64,000 bases of DNA from Amycolatopsis methanolica 239. Its GTDB lineage: Bacteria > Actinomycetota > Actinomycetes > Mycobacteriales > Pseudonocardiaceae. Made by a program: the position numbers and the translations under genes. Under the pieces are notes generated by a model. The model did no database searches and had not been told where the DNA came from. It saw only the letters and a list, made by a program, of their open reading frames with translations. The stretch lies in the NCBI RefSeq assembly GCF_000739085.1, contig NZ_CP009110.1, positions 2,976,001-3,040,000 of the forward strand, written 5' to 3'. Positions 2,164 through 46,283 of this stretch are shown one piece after another; positions within the stretch are counted from its first letter, which is position 1; each line of letters begins with the position of its first letter.

Positions 2164-3513
2164 TCAGCCCGGCAACCGGATCGCCAGCGGGGGCACCCGC
2201 ACGCTGAGCCCGCCCGACCGGACCAGCCCGCTCTCGGGCCGCGGGTTGACCACGACCTCGCCGCCCGGCGCGCTGAACTGCAGCACGTCCGCGGGCCGCT
2301 GCACGTCGACCAGCCCCTCGCGCAACCGCGGCGCCAGCCAGGTCCACGCGGCGGTCAGGCTCGTCGGCCGCAGCACCTCCGCGCCGGGCCGCGCCGCCGA
2401 CCACAGCGCGGCGTAGGGCAGGTCGTCGCTGGCTTCCGGTTGCCACAGCAGCATCGTGGCCGCACCCGCCTCGGCGGCCCGGGCCACCGCGTCCAGCGTG
2501 GCCACCGCCCGCGCCTGGTCCAGCGGCACAGGGTTCTCAGCACTCTCGGCGGTGGTCCGGGTCCCGGTGGGCGGGGGAGCGGTCTCCGGGTAGAACTCCG
2601 ACCACCACACCGGCAGCCCGGTGAGGCTGTGCGCCCAGCGGGTCGCGTCGGCGTAGAGCTGGCTCGCCTTGTCCGGCGTGGTGATCAGGCCCTTGTCGCG
2701 GGTGCCGGTGGAGGCGTCCAGCGCGACGAAGTCGGCGCCGTGCTTGTGCTGGTTCCAGTACTCCACGACGTCCAGCGACCGCTGGTCGACCACGCCGTAG
2801 GGGCCGCGCATCTCGGACGGGTGGTCCGTGGCCGCAGCCGAGGACCAGGTGTTCAGCACGACGTACGGGCCGCCGATCAGCGCGTCCGGCCGCACCGCCT
2901 TCACCGCGTCGTAGACCTGGTTGTACAGGTCGGTGTAGCCCTTCGCGTCCCAGGCGCCGGCCTCGGCGTCCCAGAACCCCTTGAGCTCGTTCCACACCTG
3001 GAAGTACCTGACCTGCGGGTAGCGCTTCGCGACCGTCGCGGACAGGCGCGCGAAGTCGTCGAAGTGCGCGGGCAGCGGGGCGGTGGCCAGGTCGTCCCAG
3101 TCGGTCGTGCCGGGCGCGCCGCCCTTCATCCAGTCGGGCGCGCAGCACAGGGTGATCACCGGGGTGCCGCCGGTGCGCTCGATCAGGTCCATCCGCTCGT
3201 CCAGGCGGGACCAGTCGAAGCTGCCGGGCGCCGGCTCGGGGTTGCCCACGCCGAAGCCCATGATGTGCTGGTTCTGCAGCATCGGGGTGGCGCCGAGGAT
3301 CTGTTCCCCGCTCGTGCGCTGCCCGGGTGTGAGCCACGAGTCGAGGCTGTACTGTGCGTGCGTCACGCCGAGTACGAGCCCATCCCCGGCGCCGGGCAGC
3401 AGCGTCACGGCCGGTGGCGCCGGGGGGGCGTCCCGATCAGCCGGAGGCCAGCCGCCGAACAGCCCCGCCACGAGCAGGGCCACCATCGCCAAGATCCCCA
3501 CGCGTGCCAGCAT
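2164..3513 (-). CDS. Secreted glycoside hydrolase, GH39/clan-A like
   Basis: A 449-residue protein with an N-terminal hydrophobic signal segment (residues 4-20), so probably exported. The body resembles a clan GH-A TIM barrel. FQVWNELKGFWD near residue 171 carries the Asn-Glu pair expected for the acid/base (N175-E176), and VWWSEFYPE near residue 302 supplies a candidate nucleophile (E306). Length and layout fit beta-xylosidase/GH39-type enzymes. It lies on the opposite strand inside a polysaccharide locus; trimming or degradation of the locus polysaccharide is inferred. The ATG at 3513 opens a frame starting MLARVGILAM; the divergent GT2 gene starts 56 bp away. Confidence 0.75.
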   Translation of the reverse strand: MLARVGILAMVALLVAGLFGGWPPADRDAPPAPPAVTLLPGAGDGLVLGVTHAQYSLDSWLTPGQRTSGEQILGATPMLQNQHIMGFGVGNPEPAPGSFDWSRLDERMDLIERTGGTPVITLCCAPDWMKGGAPGTTDWDDLATAPLPAHFDDFARLSATVAKRYPQVRYFQVWNELKGFWDAEAGAWDAKGYTDLYNQVYDAVKAVRPDALIGGPYVVLNTWSSAAATDHPSEMRGPYGVVDQRSLDVVEYWNQHKHGADFVALDASTGTRDKGLITTPDKASQLYADATRWAHSLTGLPVWWSEFYPETAPPPTGTRTTAESAENPVPLDQARAVATLDAVARAAEAGAATMLLWQPEASDDLPYAALWSAARPGAEVLRPTSLTAAWTWLAPRLREGLVDVQRPADVLQFSAPGGEVVVNPRPESGLVRSGGLSVRVPPLAIRLPG

Positions 3514-3569
3514 GCGTGACCCATCACCGTTTTGCCTTTTCAGAGCTACACCCGGAAGGGGGAAAAGCA

Positions 3570-4406
3570 GTGAGCGCGGCCGCGGTCTCCGTGTGCGTCC
3601 CGGCCTACCAGTCCGGCCGGTACATCGCCGACACCGTCTCCAGTGTCCTTTCCCAGACCTTCGACGACTTCGAGCTCGTCGTACTGGACAACGCCTCGAC
3701 CGACAAGACCCCGGACGTCCTGCGGGGCTTCACCGATCCGCGGCTCAAGGTGCTCCGCAACGACCGCGTGCTGCCGCTGGCGGAGAACTGGAACCGCGTC
3801 GTGGCCGAATCTAGCGGCCGCTTCGTGAAGCTGGTGTGCGCTGACGACCTGCTGCACCCCGACTGCCTGCGCCGCCAGTACGAGGTGCTGGCGACCGACC
3901 CGGCGATCGCGCTGGTGTGCGCGCGCCGCGACATGATCAACGAGACCGGCGAGGTGCTCGCCGCGAACCGGGGGCTGCGCGGGCTGATCGGCCGCCACGA
4001 GGCGAGCGCGGTGATCCGCAAGATCGTCCGGCACGGCGGCAACCCGCTCGGGGAGCCCGGCGGCGCGCTGTTCCGGCGCGCCCAGTTCGACGCGGTCGGC
4101 GGGTGGGACGCGCGCTGGAAGTTCCCGATGGACCTGGCGCTGTGGATCGGGCTGCTGGCCCACGGCGACTTCTTCGGCCAGCGGGAGTCGCTGGCGGCGT
4201 TCCGGATCGGGAGGGACTCCCTGTCGGCGCGGGCGCAGCGCGCGGAGTACGCCGAGCAGCGCGCGCTGTCCAAGGGGCTGGCCAGCGATCCGGTGTGGGG
4301 CGTGCGGCCGGTCGACCGGCTCGTCGGCGCGGCGATGGCGCCGGGCGCGCGGCTGCGGCGGCAGGCGTTGTTCCTGGTCGCCAGGCGACAGGGCGAGCGG
4401 GGCTAG
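3570..4406 (+). CDS. Glycosyltransferase family 2
   Basis: A 278-residue GT-A glycosyltransferase. The N-terminus has the family signature VSVCVPAYQSGRYIADTV, followed by VVLDNASTDKT and the metal/nucleotide-binding acidic pair in VCADDLLHP (D92-D93). A GGWD motif follows in the acceptor half. There are no transmembrane helices, so it is probably cytosolic or peripheral. The GTG at 3570 is chosen because it follows a GGAAGGGGGA ribosome-binding site and sits just before the conserved first beta strand. It should add one sugar to a polysaccharide or lipid-linked precursor; donor and acceptor cannot be read from sequence. Confidence 0.88.
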   Translation: MSAAAVSVCVPAYQSGRYIADTVSSVLSQTFDDFELVVLDNASTDKTPDVLRGFTDPRLKVLRNDRVLPLAENWNRVVAESSGRFVKLVCADDLLHPDCLRRQYEVLATDPAIALVCARRDMINETGEVLAANRGLRGLIGRHEASAVIRKIVRHGGNPLGEPGGALFRRAQFDAVGGWDARWKFPMDLALWIGLLAHGDFFGQRESLAAFRIGRDSLSARAQRAEYAEQRALSKGLASDPVWGVRPVDRLVGAAMAPGARLRRQALFLVARRQGERG

Positions 4407-34081: not shown

Positions 34082-34486
34082 GTGCACGCCGAAACGGTCG
34101 AAGAACACCAGTTCGTCAGCCTGGACGGCTACGACATCCCGGTCTTTTCGCGGTGGAGCTACACCACCGCCGATCCCTACGCCGTCACGCTGTCCTTCCG
34201 CGCCGACCGCGGCCGGTGGGTCGAGTGGTGCTTCGCGCGCGACCTGCTCGTCGAAGGCCTGAACGCGCCGGCGGGCGAGGGCGACGTGCGGATCCGGCCC
34301 GACATGACGGCCGGCCCGGACCAGCTGATGATGGAGCTGGAGTCGCCGGACGGGTACGCGATCGTCGAGTTCAGCCGCGAGGGCGCGGCCCGCTTCATCG
34401 CCTCCACCCACGCGCTCGTGCCGCTCGGCGCGGAGGGCGACCTGGTCGACGTGGACGGGTTCATCGCGGAGGTCACCAAGGTCTGA
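34082..34486 (+). CDS. SsgA-family sporulation/cell-division regulator-like protein
   Basis: A 134-residue protein matching the SsgA-like pattern: RWSYTTADPYAVTLSFRADR, then VEWCFARDLLVEGL, GEGDVRIRP and ALVPLGAEGDLVDVDGFI. In streptomycetes, SsgA-like proteins control FtsZ placement and peptidoglycan events during sporulation septation. They are restricted to morphologically complex actinobacteria, so the gene is also a taxonomic hint. The GTG at 34082 follows AGGAGG. It stands alone, divergent from the YibE/F gene. Confidence 0.88.
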   Translation: MHAETVEEHQFVSLDGYDIPVFSRWSYTTADPYAVTLSFRADRGRWVEWCFARDLLVEGLNAPAGEGDVRIRPDMTAGPDQLMMELESPDGYAIVEFSREGAARFIASTHALVPLGAEGDLVDVDGFIAEVTKV

Positions 34487-41796: not shown

Positions 41797-42671
41797 CCGT
41801 CGTGCTCGACGGTGGCCTGGCCACCGAACTGGAGGCGCGCGGGCACGACCTGTCCGGCGAGCTGTGGTCGGCGCGGCTGCTCGCCGACGACCCGGCCGCG
41901 ATCGTCGCCGCGCACCGGGCGTTCTTCCGCGCCGGGGCGACGGTCGCTACCACCGCGAGCTACCAGGCGAGCCTGGGCGGGTTCGCCGAACTGGGCCTCG
42001 ACCGGGACGAGGCCGTGCGGTTGCTGGAGCTGAGCGTCGAGCTCGCCCGCGAGGCGCGCGTGACCGGTGACGAACTGGTCGCCGCCTCGATCGGGCCGTA
42101 CGGCGCCACCCTCGCCGACGGGTCGGAGTACCGCGGCCACTACGGGCTCACCGTCGCGGAACTGGCCACTTTTCACCGGCCCCGCGCGGAGATCCTCGCC
42201 GCGGCCGGGCCGGACCTGCTCGCCTGTGAGACGGTGCCCGATGTGGACGAAGCTGAAGCGATGCTGCTCGCCATCGAAGGACTGGACGTGCCGGCGTGGC
42301 TGTCCTACACGGTGGAAGGCGAGAGCACGCGCGCCGGGCAGCCCCTGACCGAAGCCTTCGCCGTCGCGCGGGGCAACGACCAGATCGTGGCGGTGGGCGT
42401 GAACTGTTGCGACCCCCGCGACGTGGCGGCCGCGGCGGAGATCGCCCGCGAGGCGAGCGGGAAGCCGGTGATCGCCTACCCCAACAGCGGCGAGACCTGG
42501 GACACGCGGGCGCGCGGCTGGACCGGCGAGTCGCGGTTCTCGCCGGACCTGGTCCGGGACTGGCTCGCCGCCGGCGTCGCGTACGTGGGCGGGTGCTGCC
42601 GGGTGAGCCCGGACGACATCGCCGCGCTCGCCGCGGCGGTCAGGCCAGGAGCGGGATCGCCACGAGGGTGA
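41793..42671 (+). CDS. mmuM: Homocysteine S-methyltransferase
   Basis: A 292-residue Zn-dependent methyltransferase that makes methionine from homocysteine using S-methylmethionine or SAM. It starts VLDGGLATELEARGHDL, continues with TTASYQASLGGF, and supplies zinc-binding cysteines in GVNCCDPRDV and VGGCCRVSPDDI. The GTG at 41793 overlaps the TetR stop. Its 3' end overlaps the convergent UbiA gene by 32 bp. Confidence 0.92.
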   Translation: MTVVLDGGLATELEARGHDLSGELWSARLLADDPAAIVAAHRAFFRAGATVATTASYQASLGGFAELGLDRDEAVRLLELSVELAREARVTGDELVAASIGPYGATLADGSEYRGHYGLTVAELATFHRPRAEILAAAGPDLLACETVPDVDEAEAMLLAIEGLDVPAWLSYTVEGESTRAGQPLTEAFAVARGNDQIVAVGVNCCDPRDVAAAAEIAREASGKPVIAYPNSGETWDTRARGWTGESRFSPDLVRDWLAAGVAYVGGCCRVSPDDIAALAAAVRPGAGSPRG

Positions 42672-43527
42672 GGTCGCCTGCCAGCACGACCGGGGTGGCG
42701 AGTTTCCGCATGCGCGACAACGATCCGCCAGGGCCGATCAGGGCGATCATCCCGGTGAGGAAAGCGCCTTCCGCGAGCACCCCGGCGACGGCCCAGCCCG
42801 GTCCGTACCGCCACCACAACCCGGCGCCCAGCAGCGTGAGCCCGGCCGCGACGACGCCGCACGAGACGGCCAGCGTCCGTCGTGGACCGTACCGCGCACC
42901 CGGGGTGCGGACGCCCGACCGGGCGTCCGCGGCGTGGTCCGGCGCGGAGAACCAGGCCGTGCGGCCGAACGCGAGCACGCACAGCCCCGCCAGCACCGGC
43001 ACCATCGACCGCTCCAGCGCCGGGCGCACCGCGAAGTAGGACGCCAGTCCCGGCACGGCGAGGAAACTGGCGCCGAACACGGCCGGGCCGGCGAACCCGC
43101 GCCGCTTCAGCCGCACCGGCTCCAGGTTGTACAGCAGGTGCGCGCACAACGCCGACGCGATCACCAGCAGCGCCGCCCAGCGGCCCAGCCGCACCGCCAC
43201 CACCGCGGCCAGCGCGAGCGCCCCGGCCGCCTCGGCGACCGCCCAGCCGAAGATCCGCCTGCTGCCCAGGCGTCGCGCCGCGCCCGCCAGGTCCGCCTTG
43301 TCCGGGTCCTGCTCGTCGGTGCGCAGATCGGCCGCGGTGTTCAGCGCCAGCGCGGCCAGCAGCACCAGCAACGTGGCCGCCACGGTCACCAGCACCGGCC
43401 CGCTGAGCAGGTGCCGCGGATCCGCGAACGCCGCGCCCCACCACGCGTAGGCCAGGTAGCTCAACGGCAGCGGGAAGCGCAGGCGGTGCACGACGACGAC
43501 GTCGCGCCACCCGGTCAATCCCGGCAC
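42640..43527 (-). CDS. UbiA-family prenyltransferase (possible UbiA-type terpene enzyme)
   Basis: A 295-residue polytopic membrane protein with about eight helices. The first Asp-rich motif is NTAADLRTDEQD (N63, D67, D71) and the second is DHAADARSGVRTPGARYG (D197, D201), matching UbiA NxxxDxxxD and DxxxD; YNLEPVRLKRRG is also typical. Such enzymes prenylate acceptors or, in a few bacterial diterpene pathways, act as terpene synthases on class II cyclase products. It is the last gene of an operon with a class II terpene cyclase and a P450, overlapping the P450 gene by 13 bp. GTG 43527 is favoured (GGAAG upstream); TTG 43518 is an alternative. Confidence 0.85.
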   Translation of the reverse strand: MPGLTGWRDVVVVHRLRFPLPLSYLAYAWWGAAFADPRHLLSGPVLVTVAATLLVLLAALALNTAADLRTDEQDPDKADLAGAARRLGSRRIFGWAVAEAAGALALAAVVAVRLGRWAALLVIASALCAHLLYNLEPVRLKRRGFAGPAVFGASFLAVPGLASYFAVRPALERSMVPVLAGLCVLAFGRTAWFSAPDHAADARSGVRTPGARYGPRRTLAVSCGVVAAGLTLLGAGLWWRYGPGWAVAGVLAEGAFLTGMIALIGPGGSLSRMRKLATPVVLAGDLTLVAIPLLA

Positions 43528-44753
43528 GCCACGACTTCCAGGCGCAGCCGGACCGACGGCGCCATCGCGTGCCCGCGCAGCTTCGGCACCCCGGCCCGCG
43601 GGTTGACGCACCGCAGGGCACGGCGGCGCAGCAGGGCCGTGGTGATCATGCGGATCTCCAGCTGCCCGAGCTGGCTGCCCAGGCAGAACCGGGAGCCGCC
43701 GCCGAAGGGCAGGTACCCCTCGGGCACGCCACGGCGGCCCAGGAACCGGCCGGGGTCGAAGGTCAGCGGGGACGGGAAGTACTCGGACCGGTGGTGCGCC
43801 AGGTAGATCGCGGGGGTGAGCACCGTCCCGGCGGGCAGCGTGCGGCCGTGCACGTCCACCGCCTCCGGCAGCGCCCGGTTGCCCGCGAACTCGACCGGCG
43901 GGTGCAGCCGCAGCGCCTCGGCGATCACCGCCTGCAGCACCGGGACCTCCGCCGGATCGGAGCCGTCGTCGGTGGTGGCGTCCAGTTCGGACAGCACGGC
44001 GTCGCGCAGGTCGGCGCGCCTGGTCAGCCAGTACAACGTCCACGCGGTGGCCGCCGCGGTGGTCTCGTGTCCGGCGAACAGCAGCGACACCACCTGGTCG
44101 CGCAGCTCGTCGTCCGGCACCGGGCCGAGCGGGCCGTTCCCGGTCAGCAGGGGCGAAACCAGGCTCCGCGGTTCCCGGCCCGACTTCGCGGCGGCGACCA
44201 GCCGCGCGTCCAGCTCCGCGCCCGACGCGGGCAGCCCGCCGCGCAGGAACCGGTAGGCGAGCGTGCGGTGGCGCGACCCCAGCGCGCGGTCCAGCCACGC
44301 CGTGACGTCCCTCAGCAGCACCGGATCCGCGTCGCCGAGGACGATCCGCGCGACGATGTCCAGTGCCAGCCGCCGCGTCCACGCCGCCAGCCCGAACACC
44401 GCGCCCGGGCCCAGCGCGTCGATCGCCGACGCGGCCGCCCGCGCGATGAGGCCGTGGTAGGCCGCCAGCCGCCGTCCGCGCAGCGGTGGGCCGAGCAGCT
44501 TCCGGTACGACGCGTGGCGCGCGCCGTCGGCCCACAGCATCGACTTCGGCCCGAGCAGCGGGCCGAGCGAGCGGCTGGCCGGGTGCCGCAGCCACGAATC
44601 CCGCCGGAACAGCGAAGCGAGCGTTTCGTGGTGCCACACCAGGACCTTCGGCGCCGGCCCGCCCCGCACGTCCAGCATCGCGCCCGGGTCGTCCGCGTGC
44701 GCGTCGAGGAAGGGCAGCGGGGCGACGGCGAGCGCCAGTTCGACCCGGTTCAT
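43515..44753 (-). CDS. Cytochrome P450
   Basis: A 412-residue class I bacterial P450. The I-helix oxygen-activation motif is AGHETT (residues 227-232), the K-helix ExxR is EALR (279-282), and the heme-binding loop is FGGGSRFCLGSQ with Cys357. All catalytic positions are intact. It needs external ferredoxin and reductase; none are in the operon. Its ATG follows the stop of the terpene cyclase gene without a gap (TGAATG), so oxidation of the cyclase or UbiA product is the likely role (inference). Confidence 0.95.
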   Translation of the reverse strand: MNRVELALAVAPLPFLDAHADDPGAMLDVRGGPAPKVLVWHHETLASLFRRDSWLRHPASRSLGPLLGPKSMLWADGARHASYRKLLGPPLRGRRLAAYHGLIARAAASAIDALGPGAVFGLAAWTRRLALDIVARIVLGDADPVLLRDVTAWLDRALGSRHRTLAYRFLRGGLPASGAELDARLVAAAKSGREPRSLVSPLLTGNGPLGPVPDDELRDQVVSLLFAGHETTAAATAWTLYWLTRRADLRDAVLSELDATTDDGSDPAEVPVLQAVIAEALRLHPPVEFAGNRALPEAVDVHGRTLPAGTVLTPAIYLAHHRSEYFPSPLTFDPGRFLGRRGVPEGYLPFGGGSRFCLGSQLGQLEIRMITTALLRRRALRCVNPRAGVPKLRGHAMAPSVRLRLEVVACRD

Positions 44754-46283
44754 TCAGCCCGTCCGCTCCGCGGGCGCCGGCTCCAGCCGCGTCAGCAGTG
44801 CCGCGACCCGTGGCCGGGCGCCGGCCAGGTGCAACGCGGCGATCCCCTCTGCGCGCACGATCCGGCCCGGTGTGTAGAGGTCCTTGTCGTGCCACAGCGG
44901 GGGGTGCCCGGCGTCCGCCCAGGACAGCAGGAACGCGCAGCCGCGGGCGGCGGCCTCGTCCGCCCCAGGTCCCCCGGCGCGCGCCAGGACCTGCACGGCG
45001 TAGGCGGTTTCCTCGAACGTGCCCTGCCACCGGCCCCACGAACCGTCCGGGTTCTGCGTCCGCGCGATCCACCGCAGCGCCCGCGCGCGGGCGGCGGCGC
45101 CGTGCCCGCTGCCGGCCAGCGCCAGGAAGCACCGCGCCGTCGCGTAGTACGGGGAGGCGTGCCACTTGTCGGTCCAGCTGCCGTCCGGGTGCTGCTGGGC
45201 CGCGATCCACGCGGCCACCCGTCCGGCCACTTCGGACTGTCCGTGCGCGCGAAGCGCCTGCAGCACGTGGGCGTTGGTGGTGACCGACGGTGTACGCTCG
45301 TCCGGGTACGTGCAGAAGTGACCGTCCACTTGGTACTCCCGCAGGCAGTCCAGCGGGTGCGGGCGGCCCTGCGCGGCCAGCGCGTAGAGCGCGGTGGAGG
45401 TGTCGTCGGCGTCCGGCGGCAGCCCGGCGCCGCCGGACGCGCCGTGCGGGCCGAGCTCCGCGGCCAGCCCGTCCAGCACCTCGCCCGGGACGTCGACGGC
45501 GAGGCCGGCGTCGGCGAACGTGGACACCACCCAGGACCGTTCGAACACCGTGAGCGGCGCGGCCACCGGCACCGCTCCGCCGTGGCGCGCCTGGACGTTC
45601 TCCAAATACCGCACGCCGGGGTGGCCGCGGGCGCCGTCCGCGCCGAACCAGGCGGCGGTGGCGGCGGGGGAGCAGCCGAGCCCGTCGTCGCCGGGACGGG
45701 CGAAGCCGACCCCGCGCGCGGCCGGGCCCAGCGCCTCCAGCGAGTGCAGGACCTTGTCCGGCAGCGCCCGGCCGTCTTCGACCAGGCGGCGCATCCCGTG
45801 CAGCAGCGCCGGATGGGTGCCTTCGGGGTGCGGCAGGCGGGCGCGGGCCAGCACCATGTCCTCGGCCTCGAGCGCGTCCAGGTGCGCGTTGAGCGCCGAC
45901 ACCAGCGACGGCACCAGGATCTCCACCGCGACCGTGTCCGGCAGCCCGACCCGCAGATCCCGGCCCCACCGTGTGGTCAGCGCCTGCAGCCCGTGTTCCG
46001 CCGCGGCCGCGATCGACGGCGCGCCGGTGCGGCGGAACTCCGTCAGCAGCGCCTCGGTGGCGCTCAGCGTCGGGAGCAGGCCGTAGCCGTCCGGCCCGCC
46101 CCAGCCGCCGTCCGGCGCCTGCTGGTCCAGCAGGAACGCGATCCGGTTGGCGTGCCCGGCCAGATCGGGCAGGAGCGCGACGACGCGGGCGGTTTCGTAG
46201 ACCGACGGGGAGAAGTCCCCGTAGGGGTCGGTGACCATGGCGCGCAGCAGGTGGTGCGCGTGCTCGGCCAGGTCGGTGGTCAT
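44754..46283 (-). CDS. Class II (di)terpene cyclase, squalene-hopene/CPP-synthase type
   Basis: A 509-residue all-helical double-barrel protein. The protonating motif DXDD is present as LPPDADDTSTALYAL (D291-D294). QW-like repeats occur, such as QQAPDGGWG near residue 54 and a C-terminal NPDGSWGRW. Length and motif position match bacterial copalyl-diphosphate-type synthases, which cyclise geranylgeranyl diphosphate; no class I DDxxD motif is evident. It is the first gene of the operon with the P450 and UbiA enzymes. No GGPP synthase is in the window, so precursor supply is external. The product is unknown. Confidence 0.88.
   Translation of the reverse strand: MTTDLAEHAHHLLRAMVTDPYGDFSPSVYETARVVALLPDLAGHANRIAFLLDQQAPDGGWGGPDGYGLLPTLSATEALLTEFRRTGAPSIAAAAEHGLQALTTRWGRDLRVGLPDTVAVEILVPSLVSALNAHLDALEAEDMVLARARLPHPEGTHPALLHGMRRLVEDGRALPDKVLHSLEALGPAARGVGFARPGDDGLGCSPAATAAWFGADGARGHPGVRYLENVQARHGGAVPVAAPLTVFERSWVVSTFADAGLAVDVPGEVLDGLAAELGPHGASGGAGLPPDADDTSTALYALAAQGRPHPLDCLREYQVDGHFCTYPDERTPSVTTNAHVLQALRAHGQSEVAGRVAAWIAAQQHPDGSWTDKWHASPYYATARCFLALAGSGHGAAARARALRWIARTQNPDGSWGRWQGTFEETAYAVQVLARAGGPGADEAAARGCAFLLSWADAGHPPLWHDKDLYTPGRIVRAEGIAALHLAGARPRVAALLTRLEPAPAERTG

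Follow-up and report, generated by a model that had tools for sequence, protein, structure and literature searches.

A cyclase-P450-UbiA operon of Amycolatopsis methanolica probably encodes a two-cyclase diterpenoid pathway

We analysed a 64,000-nucleotide stretch of the genome of Amycolatopsis methanolica 239 (hereafter the window; bases 2976001-3040000 of a single-contig genome of 7,237,391 bases), in which three tightly packed minus-strand genes at positions 42640-46283 encode a class II diterpene cyclase, a cytochrome P450 (P450) and a protein of the UbiA family. The cyclase gene (44754..46283) opens with ATG at 46283 and closes with TGA at 44756-44754, giving a protein of 509 residues. 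Its stop codon is abutted, with 0 nucleotides (nt) between, by the ATG of the P450 gene at 44753 (43515..44753; 412 residues), whose end at 43515 is in turn overlapped by the UbiA gene (42640..43527). A first-pass annotation, made from the letters of the DNA, had proposed a DADD cyclase, a gapless P450 and an overlapping UbiA gene, and the coordinates, motifs and family matches bear this out. The overlap stands, but the exact start assigned to the UbiA gene, TTG at 43518 (292 residues, 4-nt overlap), is uncertain. An alternative GTG at 43527 would give 295 residues and a 13-nt overlap and, since it is also open in three named relatives (L037-L039), the true start may lie 9 nt upstream of the TTG. 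At its 3' end the UbiA gene shares 32 nt (42640-42671) with the 3' end of a convergent frame that was named by eye as homocysteine methyltransferase-like.

The three products score 49 bits (squalene-hopene type C domain, cyclase), 176 bits (PF00067, P450; E 2.1e-51) and 76 bits (PF01040, UbiA; E 2.9e-21). The arrangement is not a chance one, since the same cyclase-P450-UbiA order was seen in 44 distinct loci, the window counted, and the UbiA gene has a ratio of non-synonymous to synonymous substitution rates (dN/dS) of 0.09-0.44 across nine pairs. UbiA proteins 87, 89 and 94% identical to that of the window are found in named loci of Amycolatopsis deserti, A. thermalba and A. tucumanensis, which places the genome in the clade of these species. 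A family search of the whole genome placed the class I terpene synthase matches at 2.73 and 5.73 Mb. Three polyprenyl synthases lie at 0.48, 4.21 and 5.21 Mb, and four further UbiA genes at 0.24, 0.45, 2.90 and 4.23 Mb. None of these lies within the window (2.976-3.040 Mb), so that the earlier remark that no class I synthase or aromatic acceptor gene stands nearby holds.

The solved structure nearest to the cyclase is 5bp8 (E 6.5e-118), that of the ent-copalyl diphosphate (ent-CPP) synthase PtmT2, followed by 7xkx (Tpn2) and 6vpt (Rv3377c). The protein is 51% identical to PtmT2 and 47.3% identical to the PtmT2 of locus L194, which is described below. Its DADD sequence (residues 291-294; 45402..45413) corresponds to the DxDD catalytic acid motif and aligns with DSDD of PtmT2. 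Further along, WHDKDLY (residues 464-470; 44874..44894) aligns with WHDKDIY in PtmT2 and with WMGKDLY in Tpn2. According to a published study, Tpn2, which forms a clerodane, has Gly at position 485, where CPP formers, PtmT2 (D502) among them, have Asp (PMC9814783). The window protein has Asp at this place. Given this residue and the nearest structure, the enzyme is probably a labdane former that makes CPP, for which we predict ent stereochemistry.

The P450 carries AGHETT and FGGGSRFCLG (residues 350-359; 43677..43706), the latter of which we take to be the haem-binding loop. It is 48.8% identical to the P450 encoded between PtmT2 and the UbiA protein in the ptm-type cluster of L194, and no solved relative was found at E 1e-40.

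The UbiA protein lies far over the PF01040 cut-off and passes no NCBIfam cut-off, the best score being 37.9 bits against a cut-off of 313; the same was true of two relatives tested (L050 and L061). In contrast, the four UbiA paralogues of the genome reach NCBIfam cut-offs as heme O synthase, MenA, decaprenyl-phosphate phosphoribosyltransferase and the SCO3242 type. A sixth candidate place in the genome (L006, below the cut-off) was judged by eye to be a transporter. Thus the window protein shares its family and Asp motifs with MenA, CtaB, decaprenyl-phosphate phosphoribosyltransferase and SCO3242/EboC, but falls below the cut-off for each of them and stands apart from them in the tree presented below. 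An AlphaFold model built on an alignment of 18 relatives (mean predicted local distance difference test score 90.6) superposed on Archaeoglobus UbiA (4tq3) with a Z score of 25.9 and a root-mean-square deviation of 2.9 over 272 residues, and on the Aeropyrum enzyme (4od5) with a Z score of 23.9; soluble prenyl diphosphate synthases came next, at 16.1 and below. As modelled, the protein therefore has the membrane fold of the UbiA superfamily. Among solved structures, a phmmer search with the single sequence gave no match at E 1 and a profile search gave weak matches only. Two Asp-rich motifs are present, NTAADLRTD (motif I; N60, D64 and D68; 43315..43341) and DHAAD (motif II; D194 and D198; 42925..42939). 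The patterns NxxxDxxxD and DxxxD are kept in all 44 UbiA proteins of the cassette, as we call the three-gene unit, and in the PtmT1-like protein of L194.

L194 was recovered with PtmT2 as the query against 392 genomes of one genus (that of G077), inferred to be Streptomyces from the five to seven SsgA genes of each member and from the PtmT2 match itself. A cyclase at 1e-60 or better was found in 22 of these genomes, and in one (G896) it is 97% identical to PtmT2. A cassette-type UbiA gene occurs in 1 of the 20 loci fetched from this search, namely the locus of that cyclase, L194, where the order PtmT2-P450-UbiA is that of the window. On the other side of PtmT2 there, on the opposite strand, lie dioxygenase-like and acyl-CoA dehydrogenase-like genes (both by eye), a class I synthase-like gene and another P450 (by profile). 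The accessions of PtmT1, PtmT2 and PtmT3 (ACO31274, ACO31276 and ACO31279, as given in PMC4004862) imply the order T1-x-T2-x-x-T3, in which a single gene separates T1 from T2 and two genes separate T2 from T3. The gene layout of L194 matches this order, its UbiA gene being the second one along from the gene of a 97% PtmT2. The L194 UbiA protein is therefore PtmT1 or its ortholog, identified by position and accession order and not by a sequence accession. According to published work, a canonical synthase and one of the UbiA type convert the ent-CPP made by PtmT2 to ent-kauranol or ent-atiserene (PMC10301674), and PtmT1 is described as a dedicated ent-atiserene synthase (PMC10847714).

The L194 UbiA protein is 43.0% identical to that of the window, and the most distant UbiA protein of the cassette (L132) is 34.8% identical. 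Against the cassette UbiA profile it scores 330.8 bits, and the same profile reports none of the four own-genome paralogues. The UbiA tree places it among the cassette proteins, with forks supported at 99/95 joining it with ten and with eight of them, while MenA, heme O synthase, decaprenyl-phosphate phosphoribosyltransferase and the SCO3242-type protein of the window genome fall outside (82/93) on long branches, their mutual placement being unsure. This nesting lends support, on sequence kinship, to the first-pass suggestion that the UbiA protein acts as a PtmT1-like second terpene synthase. The P450 encoded between PtmT2 and the UbiA protein in L194 joins the cassette P450s (98/94), and the other ptm P450, together with ten P450s of class I or other clusters, lies outside that clade.

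Together these data support, with good confidence, a model in which the operon encodes a two-cyclase diterpenoid pathway composed of a class II cyclase, a PtmT1-type UbiA diterpene synthase and a P450. Geranylgeranyl diphosphate (GGPP) would be supplied by one of the three polyprenyl synthases encoded elsewhere in the genome. The soluble class II cyclase would protonate GGPP to give a bicyclic copalyl diphosphate, most likely ent-CPP. The two Asp motifs of the UbiA protein would then bind Mg and the diphosphate of CPP and ionise it, and the resulting carbocation would close to a polycyclic ent-diterpene hydrocarbon; PtmT1, the enzyme behind the core of the antibiotic platencin, makes ent-atiserene, and the product here may differ. 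Finally, the P450 would oxidise the diterpene skeleton. We infer the substrate, the order of the steps and the product, drawing on the nearest characterised kin for the cyclase and UbiA steps and on the P450 family alone for the last.

The closest known system is the ptmT2-P450-ptmT1 module of the platensimycin/platencin pathway in Streptomyces platensis, which has the same three families in the same order and on the same strand, and all three proteins align along their length. At the ptm-type locus, however, the module is accompanied by other genes, among them a class I synthase-like gene and a polyprenyl synthase, whereas that of the window stands alone. Clusters that combine a class II cyclase, a class I synthase and a P450 on plasmids of Micromonospora zamorensis and Streptomyces sp. 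NBC_00987 encode a related class II cyclase and P450; there the annotation names a terpene synthase family protein as second cyclase and shows no UbiA gene in that region, unlike in the window. The fungal UbiA-type terpene synthases Fma-TC, EriG and Tps1A/Tps2A likewise belong to the UbiA superfamily and carry out terpene cyclisation instead of prenyl transfer. The pairing of a class II cyclase with a UbiA protein is already known in general, since among 342 actinobacterial ent-CPP synthase clusters 67% have a type I synthase and 14% a likely UbiA cyclase (PMC9814783). We found no publication on this unit in Amycolatopsis, which says little given that the search fell mostly outside subscription journals; two papers mention both the genus and copalyl diphosphate (PMC10301674 and PMC5341033).

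Several findings weigh against the two-cyclase pathway. An identity of 43% fixes neither the product of an enzyme nor even its reaction. By eye, motif I of the window protein (NxxxDxxxD) equals that of the heme O synthase of its own genome and differs from the form Nxxx(G/A)xxxD reported for fungal UbiA terpene synthases (PMC9835599). A methyltransferase gene adjoins most units, though not those of the window's clade, so that three genes may not suffice for the pathway. The ptm-type locus carries a UbiA gene and a class I synthase-like gene together, and the two are thus not mutually exclusive everywhere. In one genome (G585), where the cyclase and UbiA genes are apart, the distant UbiA gene has a second, more divergent cyclase some 5 kb away, which is perhaps its partner. 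In another (G001; L046, just below 7843), the local UbiA gene is almost wholly deleted beside an intact cyclase and P450.

The fold and both Asp motifs, which are those of UbiA prenyltransferases, would also suit a genuine prenyltransferase, one that attaches the bicyclic diterpenyl moiety of CPP to an acceptor produced elsewhere, with the P450 acting on the resulting meroterpenoid. We initially read the non-fungal motif I as a sign of such an enzyme and dropped this argument because the PtmT1-like protein likewise has NxxxDxxxD. The kinship of the window protein to PtmT1, itself described as a UbiA-type ent-atiserene synthase in the papers cited above, speaks for cyclisation, and the surroundings of the unit bear on the same choice. 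We collected loci of up to 19 kb around the cyclases found in the searches of relatives and of the family (six of the 54 family genomes with a cyclase, G469, G534, G549, G579, G592 and G613, were left out), together with 19 loci from a class-wide search. Among the 77 distinct cyclase loci, a UbiA gene is present in 44 and a class I synthase in 19, with no locus having both and 14 having neither. Of the 19 loci labelled by the class I profile, 10 had themselves served to build it, and the label of L147 is weak (38 bits). Two of the 14 are cut by contig ends (L063 and L131) and eight have more distant cyclases. A cassette-type P450 stands between cyclase and UbiA in every one of the 44. A tree of the cyclases (77 rows) unites 18 class I-partnered rows from families f31 and f15 in a single supported clade (98/96); on this tree the UbiA label requires 6 changes, compared with an average of 24.9 when the labels are shuffled. 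That class I synthases accompany related cyclases lacking a UbiA neighbour weighs against the prenyltransferase reading.

Nor does an acceptor gene travel with the unit. From -8 to +9 kb across the 44 UbiA loci, which span 12 genera, the clusters of cyclase, P450, UbiA and methyltransferase were each seen in 9 to 11 genera, with some genes missed by gene calling, and every other gene was confined to 5 genera or fewer. In favour of a prenyltransferase is the methyltransferase, of a kind common on meroterpenoids; it belongs to Methyltransf_19 (PF04672) and lies beside 35 of the 44 units, 34 times downstream on the opposite strand and once upstream (L060). The nine units without it are eight of the window's own clade and L130. 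Each Amycolatopsis genome has 5 to 17 matches to this large family, so that a single neighbour could be there by chance and would carry little weight; it is the recurrence in 11 of the 12 genera that counts. Five of the seven Methyltransf_19 genes of the window genome were compared, and because the best of them reached an identity of only 41% against a cassette median of 49%, the cassette methyltransferase has probably been lost here, while most relatives may also methylate their product. On balance, we regard a prenyltransferase role for the UbiA protein as unlikely.

In a family sample of 200 genomes from 46 genera, judged by their named loci to be Pseudonocardiaceae, a cyclase at E 1e-60 or better was found in 54 genomes (20 genera) and a cassette-type UbiA at E 1e-20 or better in 45 (12 genera); with 7 candidates scored per genome for the cyclase and 11 for UbiA, absences are softer than presences. 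A cyclase at least 50% identical to that of the window is present in 44 of the 200 genomes, of which 43 also have a cassette UbiA. In the exception (G562), the contig stops within the cyclase gene. The UbiA occurs without such a cyclase in two genomes: in G595 the UbiA gene reaches the contig end, where a C-terminal cyclase stub alone is visible, and the genome of G548 gave no cyclase hit. None of the 10 genomes whose cyclases all fall below 50% has a cassette UbiA. The 50% line was set after the table had been seen, and at E 1e-60 alone the count is 43 of 54. Distance matrices gave Mantel correlations of 0.857 for the cyclase and UbiA and 0.900 for UbiA and the methyltransferase; as functional coupling and shared descent are inseparable here, we do not use these as proof. 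The lone UbiA of G548 (L218 7801-8638) has the motif I NAYAGARDD, in which Gly replaces the central Asp, and is perhaps decaying. In L125 and L126 (G583 and G553, of one genus) the UbiA frame is in two pieces, through pseudogene formation, frameshifts or sequencing errors.

In four genomes (G001, G032, G036 and G585) the cyclase has no UbiA neighbour on a contig of sufficient length, and each has a cassette-type UbiA elsewhere, standing alone in G001 and G032. In G036 the unit is split, with a cassette-type P450 and UbiA lying between two methyltransferase genes (L216 5660-9706) on a contig other than that of the cyclase. The deletion in G001 fits a pathway in which cyclase and P450 alone make an oxidised labdane, a phosphatase removing the diphosphate, and the UbiA protein serves another pathway. 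Against G013, the dN/dS of the G001 genes is 0.37 (cyclase) and 0.30 (P450). Also in line with such a two-gene pathway, 12 of the 20 loci from the Streptomyces search have neither a UbiA nor a class I profile match, and 3 more have weak class I matches. Against it, cyclase and UbiA occur together in 43 of the 200 genomes and singly in 1 and 2, and this co-occurrence takes in the four genomes where the two are not adjacent. Moreover, G001 itself has a divergent cassette-type UbiA, standing alone at 2.13 Mb (L214 8441-9344). We therefore consider the labdane explanation very improbable and retain the two-cyclase pathway.

Within Amycolatopsis the cyclase is present in 18 of 19 sampled genomes, the one without (G009) being estimated at 7% contaminated. 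The P450 follows the cyclase in 18 of these 18 loci and the UbiA gene follows in 17. The upstream PAC2-like and carboxylesterase genes (by eye) are conserved as well, which speaks for vertical descent in the genus. In the wider search with the UbiA profile (394 genomes of the class, 5 candidates scored in each), only the window genome was hit. With so few candidates per genome this says little about absence elsewhere, and the hits did not include the ptm-type locus. A plasmid collection gave no UbiA match at E 1e-3.

The trees also bear on the origin of the ptm module. Its P450 forms a subclade (100/99) with those of L130, L129, L131 and L213, PtmT2 groups with L129-L131 (97/79, incomplete support) and the PtmT1-like protein groups with L130 (90/58, weak). 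Given these groupings, we tentatively propose, at slightly under an even chance, that the unit is an ancestral Pseudonocardiaceae pathway, inherited vertically in Amycolatopsis and making an undescribed, conserved ent-CPP diterpenoid with a house function, and that the T2-P450-T1 module of S. platensis was acquired from such a unit. The ent-atiserene half of the platensimycin/platencin pathway could then derive from such a unit. We found no earlier description of the wide distribution of the unit; this distribution points to a diterpenoid within the capacity of almost all sampled Amycolatopsis. To our knowledge, few bacterial UbiA-type diterpene synthases have a known product, and the dozens of natural homologues with a fixed set of partners make a comparison of sequence with product possible.

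Some loci show variants of this arrangement. L130 (G566), the cassette nearest to the ptm module in all three proteins, is the one unit in which a polyprenyl synthase gene adjoins the cyclase; this gene and a P450 are divergent from the cyclase, and a third P450 lies downstream. In L213 (G653, from the Streptomyces search; 2537-3794, counted from the start of the cyclase), a cassette-type P450 is accompanied by a class I synthase-like gene in place of UbiA, which may reflect a natural exchange of the second cyclase. Many cyclases of family f31 (L143-L161, presumed Streptosporangiaceae) stand in the order P450, class I synthase, cyclase, and four genes of conservon-like lengths follow the cyclase. 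At the corresponding place, the M. zamorensis plasmid is annotated with nitrate sensor, roadblock, DUF742 and GTP-binding genes. Elsewhere in the window, a match to the SsgA family (PF04686), one of four in the genome, lies on the plus strand at 34148-34435.

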